Made by a program: the position numbers and the translations under genes
Shown here: positions 7,464 to 36,137 of the stretch, one piece after another
Layout: the number at the start of each line of letters is the position of its first letter
Numbering within the stretch: position 1 is the first letter of the stretch
Source: Candidatus Saccharimonadota bacterium
GTDB lineage: Bacteria > Patescibacteriota > Saccharimonadia > Saccharimonadales > 2-12-FULL-41-12
Direction of reading: 5' to 3'
Length of the DNA: 49,717 nucleotides
Assembly (NCBI GenBank): GCA_016219345.1
Contig: JACRNE010000021.1
Location: 1 to 49,717 of the forward strand
Notes under the pieces: generated by a model
What the model saw: the letters and a program-made list of their open reading frames with translations, nothing else
Told to the model about the DNA's origin: nothing
Databases searched by the model: none

Positions 7464-8678
7464 TTATAAAGCAATCTTGCTGGCGTCATCTTCTGGGGGC
7501 TTTTCGGCTACCGGGATGCTCTTTGATTCGAGCTGTGAATCCTCTTTTACCGCTGGGGCAGGAGGGGTTATGACGGTGTTAGGAACTGGGCTTGCTGAAG
7601 CTTCCATGGCTTTTTCCTTTGCTGCTAGCTCCTGTATGTCCGAGGCCCCTTTTAAGAATTCCTCTGTTGGCTGTATGACTTTCTTCTTTGGAGTTGAATC
7701 ATCGTCATTTGAGGAAGTTGAATCGGTTGGCTCTTCCTCTTCTTTTTCTGGTTCTACGGAAACATTTATTTTTGTAGCACTAGAACTATCTGGTTGGGGT
7801 ACTGGATCTGATGTGCCCGCTTCTGGCGTTGATGTTTTTTCTTCATCCGCAAGTGCCTCAGCTAGGTTAGGGCCCACAAAATCCCCAGTAGAGGGGGTCT
7901 CGATTGCTGCAGCTGGAGCCTCTTCGGACTTAGCGGTGTCGCTAGGCGCGGGAGTTTCTACTTTAGGTGTGTCGTCAGGTAATACAACTTCTATGGGCGT
8001 GGCCGCTGGTTTGTGATCCTCGGCGGGCTTTTCCTCATCTGTTTTTACTGTAGTTGAATCACTTGCAGGAGGCGAAACAACGGAAGTAGCATCGTTGTTA
8101 GCTGGTGCTGGTGCTGGTGCTGGTGCTGGTGCTGGTGCTGGTGCTGGTGCTGGTGCTGGTGCTGGTGCTGGTGCTGGTGCTGGTGCTGGTGCTGGTGCTG
8201 GCGTGCTTGCAACCACTGGATCAGCTGGCTTTTCCGCTGGTGTTGCAGTGCTTTCAGGCGTAGGGCTAACTGGAGTTGTAGGTGTTTCGGCATCCGCTTC
8301 GCCGGCTCCAGATGGATTTAATATGTCTCGTACGGATTTGGCAACATCCTCAAGTGTTACCTGACTCTTCACTAAATACAGATCAGCACCAAGCTTATCG
8401 GCCCTGGCTTTGTCTTCAGCCTGAGATAAGGCAGTCATCATTATTACTTTTGTATCTTTAGTTTCAGGTGCATTACGAAGGATATCAAGCATGTCAAAAC
8501 CACTGATACGGGGCATCATCACATCAGAAATAATCAAATCGGGTTTTTCCTTTACAGCTATTGCCAAGGCTTCTTCACCGTCACCGGCCGAAACAATAGT
8601 ATGTCCTTCGGCGCTCAAGCGAGCACCATATATTTCGCGCAGATTATTGTCATCTTCGACTAAGAGTATTTTTGCCAT
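7464..8678 (-). CDS. Response-regulator receiver domain protein with long Pro/Ala-rich tail
   Basis: N-terminal REC (ILLVEDDNNLREIYGARL...PDLIISDVMMPRISGFDML...LVKSQVTLEDV) followed by roughly 280 aa low-complexity tail including an (AP)n tract; no recognised output domain. Confidence 0.85.
   Translation of the reverse strand: MAKILLVEDDNNLREIYGARLSAEGHTIVSAGDGEEALAIAVKEKPDLIISDVMMPRISGFDMLDILRNAPETKDTKVIMMTALSQAEDKARADKLGADLYLVKSQVTLEDVAKSVRDILNPSGAGEADAETPTTPVSPTPESTATPAEKPADPVVASTPAPAPAPAPAPAPAPAPAPAPAPAPAPAPAPAPANNDATSVVSPPASDSTTVKTDEEKPAEDHKPAATPIEVVLPDDTPKVETPAPSDTAKSEEAPAAAIETPSTGDFVGPNLAEALADEEKTSTPEAGTSDPVPQPDSSSATKINVSVEPEKEEEEPTDSTSSNDDDSTPKKKVIQPTEEFLKGASDIQELAAKEKAMEASASPVPNTVITPPAPAVKEDSQLESKSIPVAEKPPEDDASKIAL
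8101..8202. repeat. Hexanucleotide tandem repeat (GCTGGT)16 + GCTGGC
   Basis: Perfect 6-nt repeats encode (Ala-Pro)n on the minus strand. Confidence 0.97.
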
Positions 8679-29974: not shown

Positions 29975-31102
29975 CTATCTTTTGCTGGCAGCGGCTGCCA
30001 GATCGTCAAGTATTCTGGCTGTTGCATCAAGTCCCACACAAGCATCAGTAATACTTTGGCCATAAACTAATTCTTTGCCAGGCTTGAGCTTCTGAGCGCC
30101 TTCTACCAAGTTACTTTCTACCATTACTCCGCAGATATCTTTATTTCCTTTTGTAACTTGTTTTGCAACATCATTAGCCACTTCTGATTGTCGAGTGAAG
30201 TCTTTCCTGGAGTTGGCGTGAGAACAGTCGATCATGATCGCAGAGTTTTGGCCAGCTTTCTCAAGCAATTCGCTTGTTTCTTTTACGGAATTAGCCTCAT
30301 AGTTTGGTCCGTGCTTGCTGCCTCGTAGAATAATGTGAGTGTCGGTGTTGCCCTTTGTTTTAATCGTAGCTGTACGCCCTTCCATATCAATGCCAAGAAA
30401 ACTGTGTTTGGTTGCGGCAGACTGCATGGCGTCAATGGCAATTTGTATGCCACCGGCCGTGCCATTCTTGAATCCTACGGGGAATGAAACACCAGAAGCC
30501 AATTCGCGGTGCAATTGACTCTCAACAGTTCTAGCCCCAATAGCCCCCCAGGAAATAAGATCAGCTATGTATTGCGGGGTTCTAAGGTCAAGTAGCTCAG
30601 TCGATACCGGCACACCAAGCTCAGTTATATCAACTAGTAGCTTTCGAGCCTTTCTAAGCCCTAACTCCATATCGAATGAGTCATCTAGATGTGGGTCATT
30701 GATGATACCTTTCCAGCCCACAGTAGTTCGTGGTTTTTCTAGGTAAGTACGCATCACAATCTCTAAGTTATCGCCGTATTTTTTGCGCTGATCTTTTATC
30801 CACTGCGCATATTCCTGCGCTGCTTTAACATCGTGGATTGAGCACGGACCAACTACCACTAAAAGTCTATTATCCCTACCGTGAATAATATTTTTTACAG
30901 CTTCACGGCCTTTCACTACCGTTTCCGCTGAGAGTTCACTTTGTGGAATTTCTTCAATAATCTCATTGGGGCTGCTAATTGACGCAGTCTCCTCAACCCT
31001 ACTATCTGTAAGTAACTTCTCTTTCATGGTTTGATACCTTTGTAATGATTGTACAACACCTGTGCGTTTATTCGATTTAGTTTTTAGTAATGTAGCTTCC
31101 AT
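29975..31102 (-). CDS. 3-deoxy-7-phosphoheptulonate (DAHP) synthase, class I
   Basis: LLVVVGPCSIHDVKAAQEYAQWI, MRTYLEKPRTTVGWKGIINDPHLD, IDCSHANSRKD, GVMVESNLVEGAQKL. Confidence 0.95.
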   Translation of the reverse strand: MEATLLKTKSNKRTGVVQSLQRYQTMKEKLLTDSRVEETASISSPNEIIEEIPQSELSAETVVKGREAVKNIIHGRDNRLLVVVGPCSIHDVKAAQEYAQWIKDQRKKYGDNLEIVMRTYLEKPRTTVGWKGIINDPHLDDSFDMELGLRKARKLLVDITELGVPVSTELLDLRTPQYIADLISWGAIGARTVESQLHRELASGVSFPVGFKNGTAGGIQIAIDAMQSAATKHSFLGIDMEGRTATIKTKGNTDTHIILRGSKHGPNYEANSVKETSELLEKAGQNSAIMIDCSHANSRKDFTRQSEVANDVAKQVTKGNKDICGVMVESNLVEGAQKLKPGKELVYGQSITDACVGLDATARILDDLAAAASKR

Positions 31103-31127
31103 TATTTCCTCTGACTTGTCTTTAAAT

Positions 31128-31152
31128 TAAAAAAACCCCGTTGATTCGGGGT
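31128..31152 (-). terminator. Attenuator terminator upstream of DAHP synthase
   Basis: Minus strand: ACCCCG-AATCAA-CGGGGT followed by a long T-run, upstream of the DAHP synthase ATG. Confidence 0.8.
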
Positions 31153-31175
31153 GTGTAGCTTGCGACTTTCGGTTT

Positions 31176-31247
31176 CTATGATTTCAACGTAAAGTCAGCA
31201 GTACTTACCCCGGCGGGTATAAAGGGTGTAAACCAATACTGACTCAT
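31176..31247 (-). CDS. Aromatic leader peptide MSQYWFTPFIPAGVSTADFTLKS
   Basis: Minus ATG AGT CAG TAT TGG TTT ACA CCC TTT ... TCA TAG; Tyr-Trp-Phe run directly upstream of the attenuator of DAHP synthase. Confidence 0.78.
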   Translation of the reverse strand: MSQYWFTPFIPAGVSTADFTLKS

Positions 31248-31303
31248 ATGTTTCTTCACGGATATTACTCTAGCACTTTTGTTCTCTGTAAACAACGTAT
31301 ACC

Positions 31304-32389
31304 TCAGTCTATTATAGCATACTTTTCAATATATTGCAATATCATCTCTGTTAAATCTTCTACTCCTTTGCGGTCAACCCATTCGTTGTCAGAGTGCCTG
31401 CCCTCTCCGTTTGGTTGGAGCACAATACAAGGAATACCTTTGTCGCAAAAGTACCTTCCATCGGTGGATCCTGATGAATGACCTTCTTCTATTTCTCTTC
31501 CAAGAACTCTCTGGGCTATATCTACAAATTCGCAAACTGATTTGTCTCTTCTGTCTACATCCATGCAAGCACCCAGCATTTTTGTATCAGTATGAAGGCC
31601 ATGTTTTTCTGCCACTTCGCTGAGCTGAGCTTCGATTTTACTTAGAGTTTCCTTATTTCTATATCTAATATCTAATATGGCCTCGGCGTGGTCTGGAACT
31701 TGGTTCATAGCTTCACCAGAGGTGAACTTAGTCAAAGTTAGCGTTAGGTCTGAAGTGTCATATTTCTGTCGGAGTTCAAGCAGCTCATTTAAAGCAGAGT
31801 TTAGGATTTCGGCGGAGTTTATGCCTGTGTGCGGCTCAGAAGCGTGTGCATTCTTGCCCTTTTTTACCAATTCGACAAACCAAGCACCTTTGGCGGAAGT
31901 CTCAATGTGCCAATCTTTACCAGAGTCAGGTAGTATGCAAATCTTGCAGCTATAACCATCGTCCAGCAGGGCTTTAACGCCATTTGTGCCACCGATTTCT
32001 TCATCGAAGGACAACATAATTCCGAAGTCATATTTATTGGCAGGCTTGCTAAGCCGCTCTAAAACTCTAAAGTAGCTGGCGCACGCGAACTTCATGTCAA
32101 AAGCCCCACGCCCAGACAACTTATCGTTAGTTTTATCTAGTTTGAATAACTCGTCTTTGGCCGGAACTACATCCATGTGAGCCTGAAGTAAAATTTTGGG
32201 CTTCTTAGTATCTTGTGTAGTTGCGACGACGTTTGGGTAGCCACTGTACTCAACAATTTGTGTTCGTAGTCCGAGGCTTTTAAAGAAGTTAGCGCAGTAC
32301 TGAGCACATTTTTTCGATTCATTTCTATCGCCAGTAACTGTTTTAAAGGCGATTAATTCTTCTAGATAATCTACTTCGGTTTTACTCAT
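31304..32389 (-). CDS. M20-family metallopeptidase (ArgE/DapE-like)
   Basis: KILLQAHMDVVPA, LSGRGAFDMKFACASYF, SFDEEIGGTNGVKAL, HSSGSTDGRYF. Confidence 0.9.
   Translation of the reverse strand: MSKTEVDYLEELIAFKTVTGDRNESKKCAQYCANFFKSLGLRTQIVEYSGYPNVVATTQDTKKPKILLQAHMDVVPAKDELFKLDKTNDKLSGRGAFDMKFACASYFRVLERLSKPANKYDFGIMLSFDEEIGGTNGVKALLDDGYSCKICILPDSGKDWHIETSAKGAWFVELVKKGKNAHASEPHTGINSAEILNSALNELLELRQKYDTSDLTLTLTKFTSGEAMNQVPDHAEAILDIRYRNKETLSKIEAQLSEVAEKHGLHTDTKMLGACMDVDRRDKSVCEFVDIAQRVLGREIEEGHSSGSTDGRYFCDKGIPCIVLQPNGEGRHSDNEWVDRKGVEDLTEMILQYIEKYAIID
31311..31339 (-). promoter_or_regulatory. Promoter of the DAHP synthase leader: TTGCAA-N17-TATAAT
   Basis: Minus -35 TTGCAA at 31334-31339, -10 TATAAT at 31311-31316, 17-nt spacer. 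Confidence 0.65.
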
Positions 32390-32410
32390 TAAACTTAATT
32401 CTACAGGAAA

Positions 32411-32725
32411 CTATGCTCTCGCCGCTATCCGCACGGGTGGAGCTGGGGTTACATGATCAGTTATTGAGCTTATTTCAGCAACACTAGCAACAGCTACCTT
32501 GCCGTATCTCCCCGTATCCTCGAAGAATCTATTTACCGGTATAACATCACCCGTAAGATGGCTTTTAACCATAAGCTGCACTCCTTTTCTAGCTGCTTCG
32601 TCAGCTTTTGTATCTATTCCCCATTTTGCCTCAGCCTGACGATGAAATTTATCATATTCATGTAGGCTCGCAGGCTTAGGATTCCCCCTGTTTGGATTGG
32701 CTGCAGCTGGTCCGTAAATTGGCAT
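32411..32725 (-). CDS. Uncharacterised 104-aa protein under a branched-chain leader
   Basis: ATG preceded by AAAAGGAGAAAACA, downstream of attenuator; no recognised family. Confidence 0.7.
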   Translation of the reverse strand: MPIYGPAAANPNRGNPKPASLHEYDKFHRQAEAKWGIDTKADEAARKGVQLMVKSHLTGDVIPVNRFFEDTGRYGKVAVASVAEISSITDHVTPAPPVRIAARA

Positions 32726-32743
32726 TGTTTTCTCCTTTTAAAT

Positions 32744-32770
32744 TAAAAACTCCCGCTTGATTGCGGGAGT
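32744..32770 (-). terminator. Attenuator terminator upstream of the 104-aa gene
   Basis: Minus ACTCCCGC-AATCAA-GCGGGAGT then TTTTT. Confidence 0.8.
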
Positions 32771-32799
32771 TCGGTTTAGTAAAAGCAAATCTACCCGCG

Positions 32800-32841
32800 C
32801 TAGTCGGTTGGTACCACCACGAGTAGAATTTGTTTGCTCAT
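32800..32841 (-). CDS. Branched-chain leader peptide MSKQILLVVVPTD
   Basis: Minus ATG AGC AAA CAA ATT CTA CTC GTG GTG GTA CCA ACC GAC TAG: Ile-Leu-Leu-Val-Val-Val run. Confidence 0.78.
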   Translation of the reverse strand: MSKQILLVVVPTD

Positions 32842-32848
32842 AAAACTC

Positions 32849-32876
32849 ACTTTACTCCTATATTTCTAGTTGTCAA
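32849..32876 (-). promoter_or_regulatory. Promoter of the ILLVVV leader: TTGACA-N16-TAAAGT
   Basis: Minus -35 at 32871-32876, -10 at 32849-32854; predicted +1 within 1-2 nt of the leader ATG. Confidence 0.6.
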
Positions 32877-33321
32877 CACTATTTTCTAAGCGCTCTTGGA
32901 TCTCTGAAAACCACTTAAAAAACTCATCCATTCCCTCAGCTTCTTCCATAATCGCATAACCTCTCTGCAGATATCCATCAATAACATCCTCCGCTGTTTC
33001 GTTGACTCTAAGAGGTGGATAGTCTACTGCTAGTTTAGGGTTGAATAATCCAAAATTTGCCCTGTTGGGCTTAAGCCGAAAGCCCTCATCCCATATACCC
33101 ACAGCAAATGCTAAAGATGCATGAACTTCCTCTAAGTCATCGGCCTCAAACATTGCTTTTATCAAGCCATGAACTTCGTTTCTACGACCGCTATGAGGCC
33201 CATTATTAAAATGAAATAACGACACAGATTCCGCGAAAGCATCGGCTAGTCTCTCTTCAGGAATAAAGGCTACTTTGTCGTGGGCTAGAGTTTGGGGGGC
33301 TTCCATAAGCTCGGGACACAT
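32866..33321 (-). CDS. Uncharacterised 151-aa protein under an isoleucine leader
   Basis: ATG after TTTAAGGAGAAGAGA; complex globular-looking sequence; no recognised family. Confidence 0.72.
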   Translation of the reverse strand: MCPELMEAPQTLAHDKVAFIPEERLADAFAESVSLFHFNNGPHSGRRNEVHGLIKAMFEADDLEEVHASLAFAVGIWDEGFRLKPNRANFGLFNPKLAVDYPPLRVNETAEDVIDGYLQRGYAIMEEAEGMDEFFKWFSEIQERLENSVDN

Positions 33322-33337
33322 TCTCTTCTCCTTAAAT

Positions 33338-33361
33338 TAAAAACTCCCGCTGGTGCGGGAG
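33338..33361 (-). terminator. Attenuator terminator upstream of the 151-aa gene
   Basis: Minus CTCCCGC-ACCA-GCGGGAG then TTTTT. Confidence 0.82.
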
Positions 33362-33386
33362 CTTGGTTTTCTAACAATATAGCAAA

Positions 33387-33440
33387 CTACCCGCTGGTCG
33401 GGGATATGATGATGCTAATAATAATCATCTGTTTGCTCAT
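33387..33440 (-). CDS. Isoleucine-rich leader peptide MSKQMIIISIIISPTSG
   Basis: Minus ATG AGC AAA CAG ATG ATT ATT ATT AGC ATC ATC ATA TCC CCG ACC AGC GGG TAG: 6 Ile among 17 residues. Confidence 0.8.
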   Translation of the reverse strand: MSKQMIIISIIISPTSG

Positions 33441-33447
33441 GGCTAGT

Positions 33448-33476
33448 ATTCTCCCATTCTGGATATTTATTGTCAA
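33448..33476 (-). promoter_or_regulatory. Promoter of the Ile leader: TTGACA-N17-GAGAAT
   Basis: Minus -35 at 33471-33476, -10 at 33448-33453; +1 predicted next to ATG 33440. Confidence 0.55.
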
Positions 33477-33482
33477 ATTAGT

Positions 33483-35252
33483 CTAAACTGCCTTGAGAGT
33501 TTTTCTATCTTTTGTGCGCTGTATAAGATTAATTGCCTTCATATAGGCGTTTACCGTAGCGCTATCCACGCCCTCCCCTTCTGCATAAGCTGTAAAGCTA
33601 TATCCATTTTGAGTCACTCTGACTAATGCCCCGGCTCTAGAGTCAGAACCTGATTCTAATGGCAAGAACTTTATCCCTTCACCAATATCACCGTCAAAGT
33701 TGAGAGCTTGATTGACGGCTTTGACAAAAGCATCAATCTGGCCATTAGATCCTCCTATATATTCTCCAGGAAATGCCTGAGAATTTGAAACAACAGAGAC
33801 TCTAGCAGATGATGATCCATCAACAGTCGAGCATTCTTGATGAGCTAGCTCAAATTGATCTGATTGTTCACCTATTGCAAATTCTTCAAGTTCTATATCA
33901 GAAATGCTTCGTTCTAAACCCTTTGTCCTTGTGTTTGAATCAACTGTTATTGACTCGATATCACTAAGTCCTGGATTTATGCCTAGGTTTCTTAATCTTG
34001 ATATAACTTCATCGGATGTTATGACAGATTCTTTTTTGTAAATTTCTGTTTCACCGAGATTATTGCGCCCATTTTTTCCCTGGTATTCTCCATCTTCGAT
34101 CCTTGCCGCACTGGAATGACCGAACCACATTGGATTTACGGCTGCATAAGTAGCTGCTCCGCCCTTTAAGATAGCGTCCGCATGGACACCCGATCTATGA
34201 GCTATAGTGTCATCGCCCACTACAGCTGCATTTGGATCAAGTTCTATCCCTGCCTTCGCGCAAATGAACTCTACGGTTTGCTTTAATCTCCTGCTGTCTA
34301 CGCCTAAATCTATATCTGCTGCAAACTCGCTTCTATCAGTCAAAAAATTTCTTACCAGAGGGGCTAAGTTTGTATTGCCGTTTCTTTCGCCCAAGTTATG
34401 TCCGGATGTAACTTCTGCTTGAAATGTTGGTATACCCTGACTTAAACCTAGCCGAGATGACGCATTTATAACGGCATGGGCTGATGCGATCGTATTCTGA
34501 ACAGCTCTTTCTCCGTCGTTATGATTGTGGCTAGATATGATGACTTCATTTGCCCTGCCCTCTTGAATGACCCACTCTGTTACTTTCTCAAATATTTTAT
34601 ACATTCTGGTTGGGCTGGCTGCACCTAGAGTATCCGGTATGTTGATTACGTCGATCCTAGCTTCGTCATCACTTACAGCGGCACGGACGAATCTTTCCAG
34701 AACGCCAATATCACTAGTCGATGCCGCTTCGCACGAGAATTCAATTCTTGTGGCCGGTCCGCCTATCTTTCTCGCGTGTCGGATTGCTTCAATTGCCATG
34801 TCGAGTATTTGCTCTTGATCCATGCGGGGGTGTTTGGCGCGCATATGTTCTTCAGACGTGGCAACGAAGGTGTGTATACCTGGACGTTTAGCCCCTTGGA
34901 CTGCGGCAAAAGTCCTGTTAATTTCTGATATATCTGCCCTTGCTAGACCTGTTATAACGGGCGTCCATAGTTTTGGTTTTAACTCGACTAACTCTCCGTC
35001 AACTATTGAAGTTGGCGTTATTAGGTATTCCTGTTGCCCTACGGTCTCGGCTACTTCAGCTACACGTGCATCATCGTTCATACTAGCCGGGAAGCCTGCT
35101 TCGATTGTGTCTACGCCTTGCCTTGCAACCATATCAGCTATTTCTACCTTTGCACCTTTGGGAAATTGGTTGGCCTCGGGCAATGACTGAGCACCATCCC
35201 TGCAGGTAGTGTCAAAGATCTCTACTCGCATTGTCTCTAATGGATTATTCAT
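33483..35252 (-). CDS. leuA: 2-isopropylmalate synthase-like enzyme (LeuA/CimA family)
   Basis: VEIFDTTCRDGAQSL, IEAGFPAS, ISSHNHNDGERAVQNTIASAHAV, HRSGVHADAI; C-terminal regulatory-like domain; Leu-rich leader upstream. Confidence 0.8.
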   Translation of the reverse strand: MNNPLETMRVEIFDTTCRDGAQSLPEANQFPKGAKVEIADMVARQGVDTIEAGFPASMNDDARVAEVAETVGQQEYLITPTSIVDGELVELKPKLWTPVITGLARADISEINRTFAAVQGAKRPGIHTFVATSEEHMRAKHPRMDQEQILDMAIEAIRHARKIGGPATRIEFSCEAASTSDIGVLERFVRAAVSDDEARIDVINIPDTLGAASPTRMYKIFEKVTEWVIQEGRANEVIISSHNHNDGERAVQNTIASAHAVINASSRLGLSQGIPTFQAEVTSGHNLGERNGNTNLAPLVRNFLTDRSEFAADIDLGVDSRRLKQTVEFICAKAGIELDPNAAVVGDDTIAHRSGVHADAILKGGAATYAAVNPMWFGHSSAARIEDGEYQGKNGRNNLGETEIYKKESVITSDEVISRLRNLGINPGLSDIESITVDSNTRTKGLERSISDIELEEFAIGEQSDQFELAHQECSTVDGSSSARVSVVSNSQAFPGEYIGGSNGQIDAFVKAVNQALNFDGDIGEGIKFLPLESGSDSRAGALVRVTQNGYSFTAYAEGEGVDSATVNAYMKAINLIQRTKDRKTLKAV

Positions 35253-35267
35253 TTTTCTCCTCTAAAA

Positions 35268-35294
35268 TTAAAAATCAGGCTGCTTGGCCTGATT
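35268..35294 (-). terminator. Attenuator terminator upstream of leuA-like gene
   Basis: Minus AATCAGGC-CAAGCA-GCCTGATT then TTT AATTTTA. Confidence 0.78.
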
Positions 35295-35326
35295 ATCGTT
35301 GGCTGTACTAGCGGCGCGTATTGCGC

Positions 35327-35404
35327 TCAGGCTTCAGCAATGTTGAAGCACAGCCCGTTTAGGCTGAGAAGGAGTAGATCCAATTGCTTCTTAACTAAAA
35401 CCAT
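35327..35404 (-). CDS. Leucine-rich leader peptide MVLVKKQLDLLLLSLNGLCFNIAEA
   Basis: Minus ATG GTT TTA GTT AAG AAG CAA TTG GAT CTA CTC CTT CTC AGC CTA ... GCC TGA; Leu run of CTA CTC CTT CTC. Confidence 0.8.
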   Translation of the reverse strand: MVLVKKQLDLLLLSLNGLCFNIAEA

Positions 35405-35405
35405 A

Positions 35406-36137
35406 TCAAAGCAAATGATAGTTATTTTCACCATTTTTGTCAAATTTGCCGAGTTCATAAACGACGTTTTTGCGTTCAACTACTATTTTCCATCCGTGTT
35501 CTTTTGCTTTTGCAAGCAATTTTTCTGTTGGGTTGAATGCTATTGGGTTTTGGACTAGCTCTAGCATTGGGATGTCACCTTCACTATCACCTACTCCGTA
35601 GCTATCTTCTAGTGATAGGTCATGTTCTTCAATTAGCTTGTTTAAGACTACATCTTTTTCTGTGGCTGGCAATTGGTACTTTCCAGTAAATTTCCCGTCA
35701 ATAATCTCGTATTTCGTGCCTACCCAGTCGTCAAACCCATAGTGCTTAGCTACAAGCTCAACTGCTTCTCTATGAGATCCAGAAATTGCTATTAGGAAAT
35801 AGCCTTTTTCTTTTAGCTCTTTCACTAAATCTCTAGTGTAGACATAAACTTGCTGTTTGTGCTCCTGATAGACTTCGTTTATTGCCTGATCTAGCTGAGT
35901 TTGCGGCAGGCTCGGCAGGGATAGATTGTAGCAATTTACTAGCTCCCTCTCGTAGTCTTTAAAGGCATCTTGGGATTCGCGGATTTTCCATTTATGGCGG
36001 GCTAATCTAACTTTTTCATAAGACTCGCCATCAACTAAATTATTCTGAGCTAAATTATCGACGATGGCGTGGTATAGCTGCCAGCGAATCAATGTTCCAT
36101 CAAAATCAAAAACCGCAAATTTTCTATTCATACACAA
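35406..36137 (-). CDS. HAD-IB family hydrolase (SerB-like)
   Basis: FAVFDFDGTLIRWQLYHAIVD, LIAISGSHREAVELVAKHYGFD, YGVGDSEGDIPMLELV. Confidence 0.88.
   Translation of the reverse strand: MCMNRKFAVFDFDGTLIRWQLYHAIVDNLAQNNLVDGESYEKVRLARHKWKIRESQDAFKDYERELVNCYNLSLPSLPQTQLDQAINEVYQEHKQQVYVYTRDLVKELKEKGYFLIAISGSHREAVELVAKHYGFDDWVGTKYEIIDGKFTGKYQLPATEKDVVLNKLIEEHDLSLEDSYGVGDSEGDIPMLELVQNPIAFNPTEKLLAKAKEHGWKIVVERKNVVYELGKFDKNGENNYHLL
35415..35443 (-). promoter_or_regulatory. Promoter of the Leu leader: TTGACA-N17-TATCAT
   Basis: Minus -35 at 35438-35443, -10 at 35415-35420; lies inside the 3' end of the HAD gene. Confidence 0.65.

Follow-up and report, generated by a model that had tools for sequence, protein, structure and literature searches.

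Predicted amino-acid-specific transcription attenuators in tandem in a Saccharibacteria genome, and a leucine/isoleucine leader family with a possible pseudoknotted antiterminator

Attenuation of transcription by a translating ribosome is a known mechanism (trp, leu, phe). In Corynebacterium glutamicum, an aroR leader carrying Phe-Tyr-Phe precedes aroF (PMC11802643; PMC4046766), and the ilvB leader peptide, in the account that PMC4046766 gives of Morbach (2000), is made without a ribosome binding site (RBS). The actinobacterial LEU element has a leuA leader peptide with a Leu run, a predicted pseudoknot and a base stem formed by Leu codons and the Shine-Dalgarno sequence, and was described with no obvious terminator (PMC1262725). 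For Patescibacteria (candidate phyla radiation, CPR), no paper on leader-peptide attenuation was found among the open-access papers searched. Here we describe four consecutive minus-strand leaders in a 49,717-nucleotide stretch of DNA (hereafter the window), which is contig C18 of a Saccharibacteria metagenome-assembled genome (MAG; 735 kb in 36 contigs, 87% complete). Each of these leaders is very probably an amino-acid-specific, ribosome-mediated transcription attenuator. A preliminary description of this DNA had presumed a reduced CPR-type genome, which the assignment to Saccharibacteria bears out.

On the minus strand, between 35.4 and 30.0 kb, the leaders and their genes follow one another in the order leader D and LeuA, leader C and a 151-amino-acid (aa) protein, leader B and a 104-aa protein with an M20 peptidase, and leader A and DAHP synthase (Table 1). 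Each leader has a short open reading frame (ORF) with a run of particular codons; a G+C-rich hairpin with a T-run comes next, then AATTT, an RBS and the gene. Further, a segment of each leader repeats the 3' arm of its terminator: ACCCCG in leader A (31207-31212 and 31135-31140), CCCGC in B (32794-32798 and 32752-32756), CCCGCTGGT in C (33390-33398 and 33346-33354) and TCAGGC in D (35327-35332 and 35275-35280). These elements and all four copies lie exactly where the preliminary description had placed them, and when 12 leaders were pooled, the copies clearly departed from dinucleotide shuffles (Fisher combined p = 3e-6).

The preliminary description had also proposed a search of the whole genome for the same module. 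We scanned 744 kb, including overlaps, for strong terminators that immediately precede an RBS and have a short ORF of biased composition on their upstream side, and only the four window leaders and one Arg module convincingly combined these features with an arm copy. This fifth leader lies outside the window (G000:C3, L048:1850-4149), has Arg codons (MLILSNTNSENRRSSRKHGSCA, RRSSRKH) and a terminator, and precedes genes for a GNAT acetyltransferase and argS. Arg leaders (RRSSR; RRSNR) also precede a GNAT-type gene near argS in two relatives, G001 and G034, the latter belonging to another family; the GNAT reading frame in G001 is short (62 aa) and possibly broken. The regulon was first described as two biosynthetic enzymes and two unknown proteins. 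Profile matches confirm the enzymes as LeuA and DAHP synthase, and the regulon turns out to be larger: the 104-aa ORF is directly followed by the M20 peptidase gene, so that the unit under leader B exceeds what was first stated, and the Arg leader adds GNAT-argS.

The same four leaders, with the same order of specificities (Leu, Ile, Ile/Leu/Val, Tyr-Trp-Phe), are syntenic in two relatives. In G004, from another genus of the same family, a Leu leader precedes LeuA, MSKQIIDTIIIIPEARG precedes a second LeuA/citramalate-synthase-like gene, MSKSLILAIAVVVAPETSG a 137-aa protein and the M20 peptidase, and ...QYWFSTYF... DAHP synthase. In G001, from the same genus as the window genome, the corresponding units are a Leu leader with a 92-aa protein, ...RKQIIIIGIIDSPHSG with a 159-aa protein (27% identity to the 151-aa window protein, E 3e-5), MSKQIIVNVIILPGNSG with RidA, IlvA and the M20 peptidase, and ...QFWFSNYTF... 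with DAHP synthase. Across the three loci, leader order and specificity are constant, and the cargo is partly exchanged. Since IlvA and RidA are isoleucine enzymes, their position behind the Ile/Val leader backs the codon reading of that leader. Conservation of codon content and of terminator/antiterminator pairing at orthologous loci had been set beforehand as the test on which the ribosome-mediated attenuation logic would stand or fall; both are conserved, which supports that logic.

The aromatic leader can be followed through the order on its own. Of the 340 genomes of the order, 12 encode DAHP synthase of the type behind leader A, and 10 of the 12 genes have an aromatic leader and a terminator directly before them. 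The leader motif is YWF in six, including the window, FWF in two, WFYF in one and NYVNYTYQ, with Tyr only, in one. The terminators of these leaders vary (CCCCG/CGGGG, CGCTCGG/CCGGGCG, ACCGCC/GGCGGT and others), and the 3'-arm copy in the leader matches its own terminator in nearly all cases, being short in G004; terminator and leader copy change together across relatives. Sensing all three aromatic amino acids at the first step would be sensible, because the window genome encodes DAHP synthase, aroB, D, E, K, A, chorismate synthase, and pheA-, tyrA- and trpE/D/C-like genes. Such a near-complete shikimate pathway together with the pheA-, tyrA- and trpE/D/C-like genes (L051, L061, L059, L093) is unexpected for a Saccharibacterium. 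No attenuator was seen before the pathway genes at these four loci.

Leader D belongs to a family of Leu/Ile leaders (R1) that share the core GGCTGTGCTTCA-NNN-TKNYTGAAGCC inside the leader ORF and encode ...[LIV]n-[SG]L-x-GLCFxMVEA. A pattern search with the leader D motif matched 33 stretches in genome_contigs, from Saccharibacteria or 'bacterium' MAGs, and a covariance model found the family in at least 88 of the 340 genomes and 59 of 148 genera, usually in one copy each. In a wider draw of 287 genomes of the phylum, the model matched only members of this order, apart from one weak match outside it; the R1 searches ran with the strict filters of Infernal, and the counts are therefore lower bounds. 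The codons before the core follow the gene behind the leader. Of the 71 leaders scored, 14 stand in front of LeuA-like genes, and in every one of these the eight codons that precede the core include 3-5 for Leu and no more than one for Ile or Val; leaders in front of IlvB, of RidA-IlvA, or of an orphan protein with these behind it, are Ile/Val-rich (codon-cargo match, p = 1.4e-5). Overall, cargo with a pathway match to the sensed amino acid comprises LeuA and DAHP synthase, with IlvB, IlvA and RidA in relatives. An Ile/Val family (R2), modelled on leaders B and C together with four relatives, has matches in 28 of the 340 genomes, those with E above about 1e-3 being uncertain, and its cargo includes small orphans, RidA (L232) and an IlvA-like gene (L244). 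A match of leader B to the Rfam entry 'freshwater-2' fell far below gathering and was dropped.

Base pairing in R1 was assessed in 78 sequences. The hairpin of segments 1 and 2 (1:2) is 99.5% paired, with changes on both sides in 3 of 6 pairs; the corresponding values are 96% and 7 of 9 for P1, 92% and 8 of 8 for the terminator, and 86% and 8 of 11 for the antiterminator, and the observed changed-cell counts were reached in 0 of 500 covariation shuffles. P1 and the terminator guided the fitting of the alignment, so the statistics of these two helices lean towards the model, whereas the antiterminator and the 1:2 hairpin lay outside the fit. P1 crosses the antiterminator, so the two could coexist only as a pseudoknot, which we infer that they may form. 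The duplex of segment 2 with the terminator 5' arm (2:3) has a median of -17.4 kcal/mol, compared with -10.7 kcal/mol for the terminator, and is the stronger of the two in 74 of 78 sequences. An extra hairpin upstream of P1 (columns 14-18 with 25-29) was tested and was not clearly supported.

Promoter positions suggest how the leader peptides might be translated. With the ATG of each R1 leader picked independently of promoters, the best TTGACA/TATAAT pair ended 7-9 nt before it in 34 of 73 leaders, compared with 5% of controls, and 5-12 nt before it in 44 of 73, compared with 13%; a Shine-Dalgarno-like motif preceded the ORF in one of the 73. Starts 4-12 nt behind the -10 box were found in 24 of 27 leaders. 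Transcription usually starts 6-7 nt after the -10 box, and with this spacing the mRNAs are predicted to begin at or near the AUG; judged by their sequences, the leader peptides look leaderless.

We propose that transcription would start at the leader AUG or a few bases upstream of it, and that a ribosome would load on the leaderless mRNA and follow the RNA polymerase. With ample cognate aminoacyl-tRNA, the ribosome would reach the leader stop codon and cover the antiterminator strand (segment 2), leaving the terminator 5' arm (segment 3) to pair with the 3' arm (segment 4), and transcription would end upstream of the gene. In a shortage of the amino acid, the ribosome would stall on the codon run, segment 2 would capture segment 3 as it emerges, no terminator would form, and the gene would be transcribed. 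In leaders A, B, C and Arg the antiterminator would be an ordinary nested hairpin. In leader D, P1, formed by segment 1 and the strand between segments 2 and 3, would enclose segment 2, pulling segment 1 off it and presenting segment 2 in the P1 loop.

Equilibrium folding was mostly uninformative on ribosome position, and a snapshot approach was therefore adopted, with Escherichia coli leaders as controls, in which the terminator 5' arm is out and the 3' arm is not yet made (assumed footprint edge 13 nt, no kinetics). With the ribosome placed up to the regulatory codons, the leader held the 5' arm with high probability, and with the ribosome at the stop codon this probability was low. For 17 leaders of the A, B, C and Arg types the mean difference was 0.74, compared with 0.13 for shuffles (sd 0.06, maximum 0.29), and in the same model E. 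coli pheL went from 0.84 to 0.00 and leuL from 0.46 to 0.00.

Several observations limit or weigh against attenuation as proposed here. The arm copies of single window leaders are weak (p = 0.01-0.17 against dinucleotide shuffles), and two leaders of relatives, G001_C and G004_A, did no better in the snapshot than many shuffles. In the footprint folding that the preliminary description had suggested, the Ile, Ile/Leu/Val, aromatic and Arg leaders switched at their regulatory codons, but leader D, folded as a nested structure, showed no clean switch, and the window copy of leader D is among the exceptions in duplex energy, its 2:3 duplex (-10.0 kcal/mol) being no stronger than its terminator (-10.4 kcal/mol). 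Full-length equilibrium folds favour the terminator in most leaders at any ribosome position, and switching must therefore be kinetic. One R1-type copy (L021) has no T-run within the stretch scanned, and for many cargo genes no connection with the amino acid sensed is known.

Among other explanations, the one that survives best, and still an improbable one, is that the hairpins act on translation initiation by Shine-Dalgarno sequestration, as proposed for the LEU element, and not on termination. It would suit the short distance from T-run to start codon (17-26 nt in the window), which puts the hairpins near the RBS, and the degenerate T-runs of some family members. However, nearly all stems are G+C-rich with 4-8 T directly after them, the RBS lies outside the hairpin, and no base stem of Leu codons and Shine-Dalgarno sequence was seen. 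Homology to the LEU element was looked for as well and not found, with no meaningful R1 match upstream of Microbacterium leuA, the one example taken.

Less probable again is sensing of the amino acid by a T-box, riboswitch or protein-binding element, with an incidental leader peptide. What recommends this idea is leader D, whose RNA is compact, strongly conserved and possibly pseudoknotted, but the regulatory codons vary with the cargo while the remaining RNA stays the same, and modelled switching depends on ribosome position. A T-box covariance model found nothing up to E = 5 in window 30900-35700, the leaders searched gave no Rfam match above gathering, and R1 is absent from Rfam. Finally, that the hairpins are ordinary terminators of the upstream genes, which are indeed co-directional and end shortly before each leader, and that the short ORFs are chance or neutral, is hardly credible given the own promoter directly upstream of each leader ORF, the codon runs that fit gene function, the leader copy that changes with the terminator and the covarying helices within the leader ORF.

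Returning to ribosome-mediated attenuation, many of its apparent outputs are proteins of no recognizable kind. About 50 R1 leaders precede short proteins of roughly 40-160 aa that are mostly mutually unrelated, with small groups sharing motifs (VVIPYAGTE...ANLP; and, among the first genes at L105-L174, C-terminal YAGTE...ANMP/ANLP in one group and SSxE..KW..DPELL in another). The 151-aa and 104-aa window proteins gave no significant profile match, and a search of 99 further genomes of the order returned no relative of the latter; a structure prediction for the 151-aa protein, made with one homologue, reached pLDDT 40 and was not used. Compared with long window ORFs, the orphans are low in Ile (4.2 vs 7.3%) and Leu (5.0 vs 8.7%), which fits synthesis during shortage and may faintly hint at it, the proteins being small and the background mixed. 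Of 74 first genes behind R1 leaders, 17 lie directly upstream of rplJ, in some cases separated from it by an L10 leader. That the attenuator drives rplJ too becomes less likely, since a same-strand L10 leader is found in L152, L235 and, below gathering, L105. Separately, a 104-aa orphan precedes rplJ elsewhere in the window genome (L080:5465-5818), with a terminator hairpin directly before the RBS and a sequence resembling the end of a flavin mononucleotide (FMN) riboswitch further upstream.

The enzyme behind leader D also needs explanation. As a query on its own, LeuA had no match in genome_contigs or viral_contigs. Homologues of E. coli leuB, C, D and ilvC, D, A were not found at 1e-3 in the window genome (87% of the genome), and none of the 14 screened genomes of the order, all of them carrying LeuA, IlvB or leaders, has an aconitase-family protein, all control genomes being positive, which indicates that these 14 have no LeuC. 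Candidate explanations for a leucine-regulated LeuA without the next enzyme are complementation by the host, a different reaction or a lost pathway.

Patescibacteria/CPR are largely thought to depend on their hosts for amino acids. We consider it conceivable, and rather doubtful, that Saccharibacteria have a lineage-wide starvation regulon run by leaderless attenuators, one family with a pseudoknotted antiterminator, whose main outputs in many genomes would be small, fast-evolving orphans, such that a shortage of host-supplied branched-chain amino acids would call up host-interaction or dormancy proteins and not biosynthesis. With a sensor for leucine, isoleucine, valine, aromatics and arginine, the amino acids that the host supplies would become a regulatory input that can be measured in an episymbiont, and the leaders would serve as functional labels connecting otherwise unclassifiable orphan proteins with a shortage of one particular amino acid. 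The crossing, covarying helices of the Leu family offer a clean test case for a pseudoknot antiterminator.

Table 1. Leaders and genes of the window, in order of transcription.
Feature	Position	Strand	Basis
-35 box of leader D, TTGACA; 17 nt from -10 box	35438..35443	-	promoter scan
-10 box of leader D, TATCAT; leader ATG 10 nt downstream, no Shine-Dalgarno	35415..35420	-	promoter scan
Leader D ORF, peptide MVLVKKQLDLLLLSLNGLCFNIAEA, Leu run	35327..35404	-	peptide conserved across order
Leader D segment 1, P1 5' strand GGCTGTGCT	35347..35355	-	P1 covariation, 78 sequences
Leader D segment 2 TGCTGAAGCCTG, antiterminator strand, pairs with terminator 5' arm	35328..35339	-	covariation, duplex energies
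Leader D P1 3' strand AGTACAGCC	35301..35309	-	covariation
Leader D terminator hairpin and T-run	35270..35293	-	scan and covariation
LeuA-like 2-isopropylmalate synthase, behind leader D	33483..35252	-	profile match
Promoter of leader C, TTGACA-17-GAGAAT; 7 nt upstream of leader ATG	33448..33476	-	promoter scan
Leader C ORF, peptide MSKQMIIISIIISPTSG, Ile runs	33387..33440	-	sequence; model R2
Leader C segments 1:2 CCCCGACCAGCGGG; antiterminator strand GCGGG	33390..33403	-	snapshot folding
Leader C terminator hairpin and T-run	33339..33362	-	terminator scan
151-aa protein, behind leader C	32866..33321	-	159-aa homologue behind same leader in G001
Promoter of leader B, TTGACA-16-TAAAGT; 7 nt upstream of leader ATG	32849..32876	-	promoter scan
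Leader B ORF, peptide MSKQILLVVVPTD, Ile/Leu/Val codons (ILLVVV)	32800..32841	-	sequence
Leader B antiterminator strand GCGCGGGTAG	32791..32800	-	snapshot folding
Leader B terminator hairpin and T-run	32745..32772	-	terminator scan
104-aa orphan protein, first gene behind leader B	32411..32725	-	profile and relatives search
M20 family peptidase/deacylase, second gene behind leader B	31304..32389	-	profile; same position in G001, G004
Probable promoter of leader A, TTTACA-17-AGTAAT	31264..31292	-	promoter scan
Leader A ORF, GTG start 31259, internal ATG 31247; ...MSQYWFTPFIPAGVSTADFTLKS, Tyr-Trp-Phe	31176..31259 (31247-31176 from ATG)	-	sequence
Leader A antiterminator strand GCCGGGGTA	31206..31214	-	snapshot folding
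Leader A terminator hairpin and T-run	31129..31152	-	terminator scan
DAHP synthase (AroFGH type), behind leader A	29975..31102	-	profile match

Two further features of the window lie apart from the leaders. DNA topoisomerase I is apparently split (436-2647, ORFs 1313-2647 and 436-1266), by an assembly frameshift or in reality, and a response-regulator-like protein (7464-8678) contains a long Pro-Ala repeat that is also open in other frames (His-Gln, Gly-Ala).

Compared with the known systems, the leaders resemble E. coli leuL and pheL (trp/his type) in the cognate codon run, the alternative antiterminator, the intrinsic terminator before the first gene and, for the A, B, C and Arg types, the snapshot switch, but differ in their RNA sequences, the lack of a Shine-Dalgarno sequence before the leader ORF, the extra covarying P1 of leader D, the occurrence of four in tandem, and the combination of Tyr, Trp and Phe in one leader. 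The Rfam operon leaders Leu_leader (RF00512) and Thr_leader (RF00506) represent the same mechanism, yet neither reached gathering at the leaders searched. With C. glutamicum the locus shares an aromatic leader before DAHP synthase and a leader peptide without RBS, although the phylum is another and the codons here are Tyr-Trp-Phe; the relation is one of shared logic. The LEU element likewise has a Leu-run leader peptide before leuA and a predicted pseudoknot, whereas the R1 terminator with its T-run, for which no obvious counterpart is described there, is conserved and covarying. What looks new here is the proposed pseudoknot, the lineage concerned and the regulon of orphan proteins.

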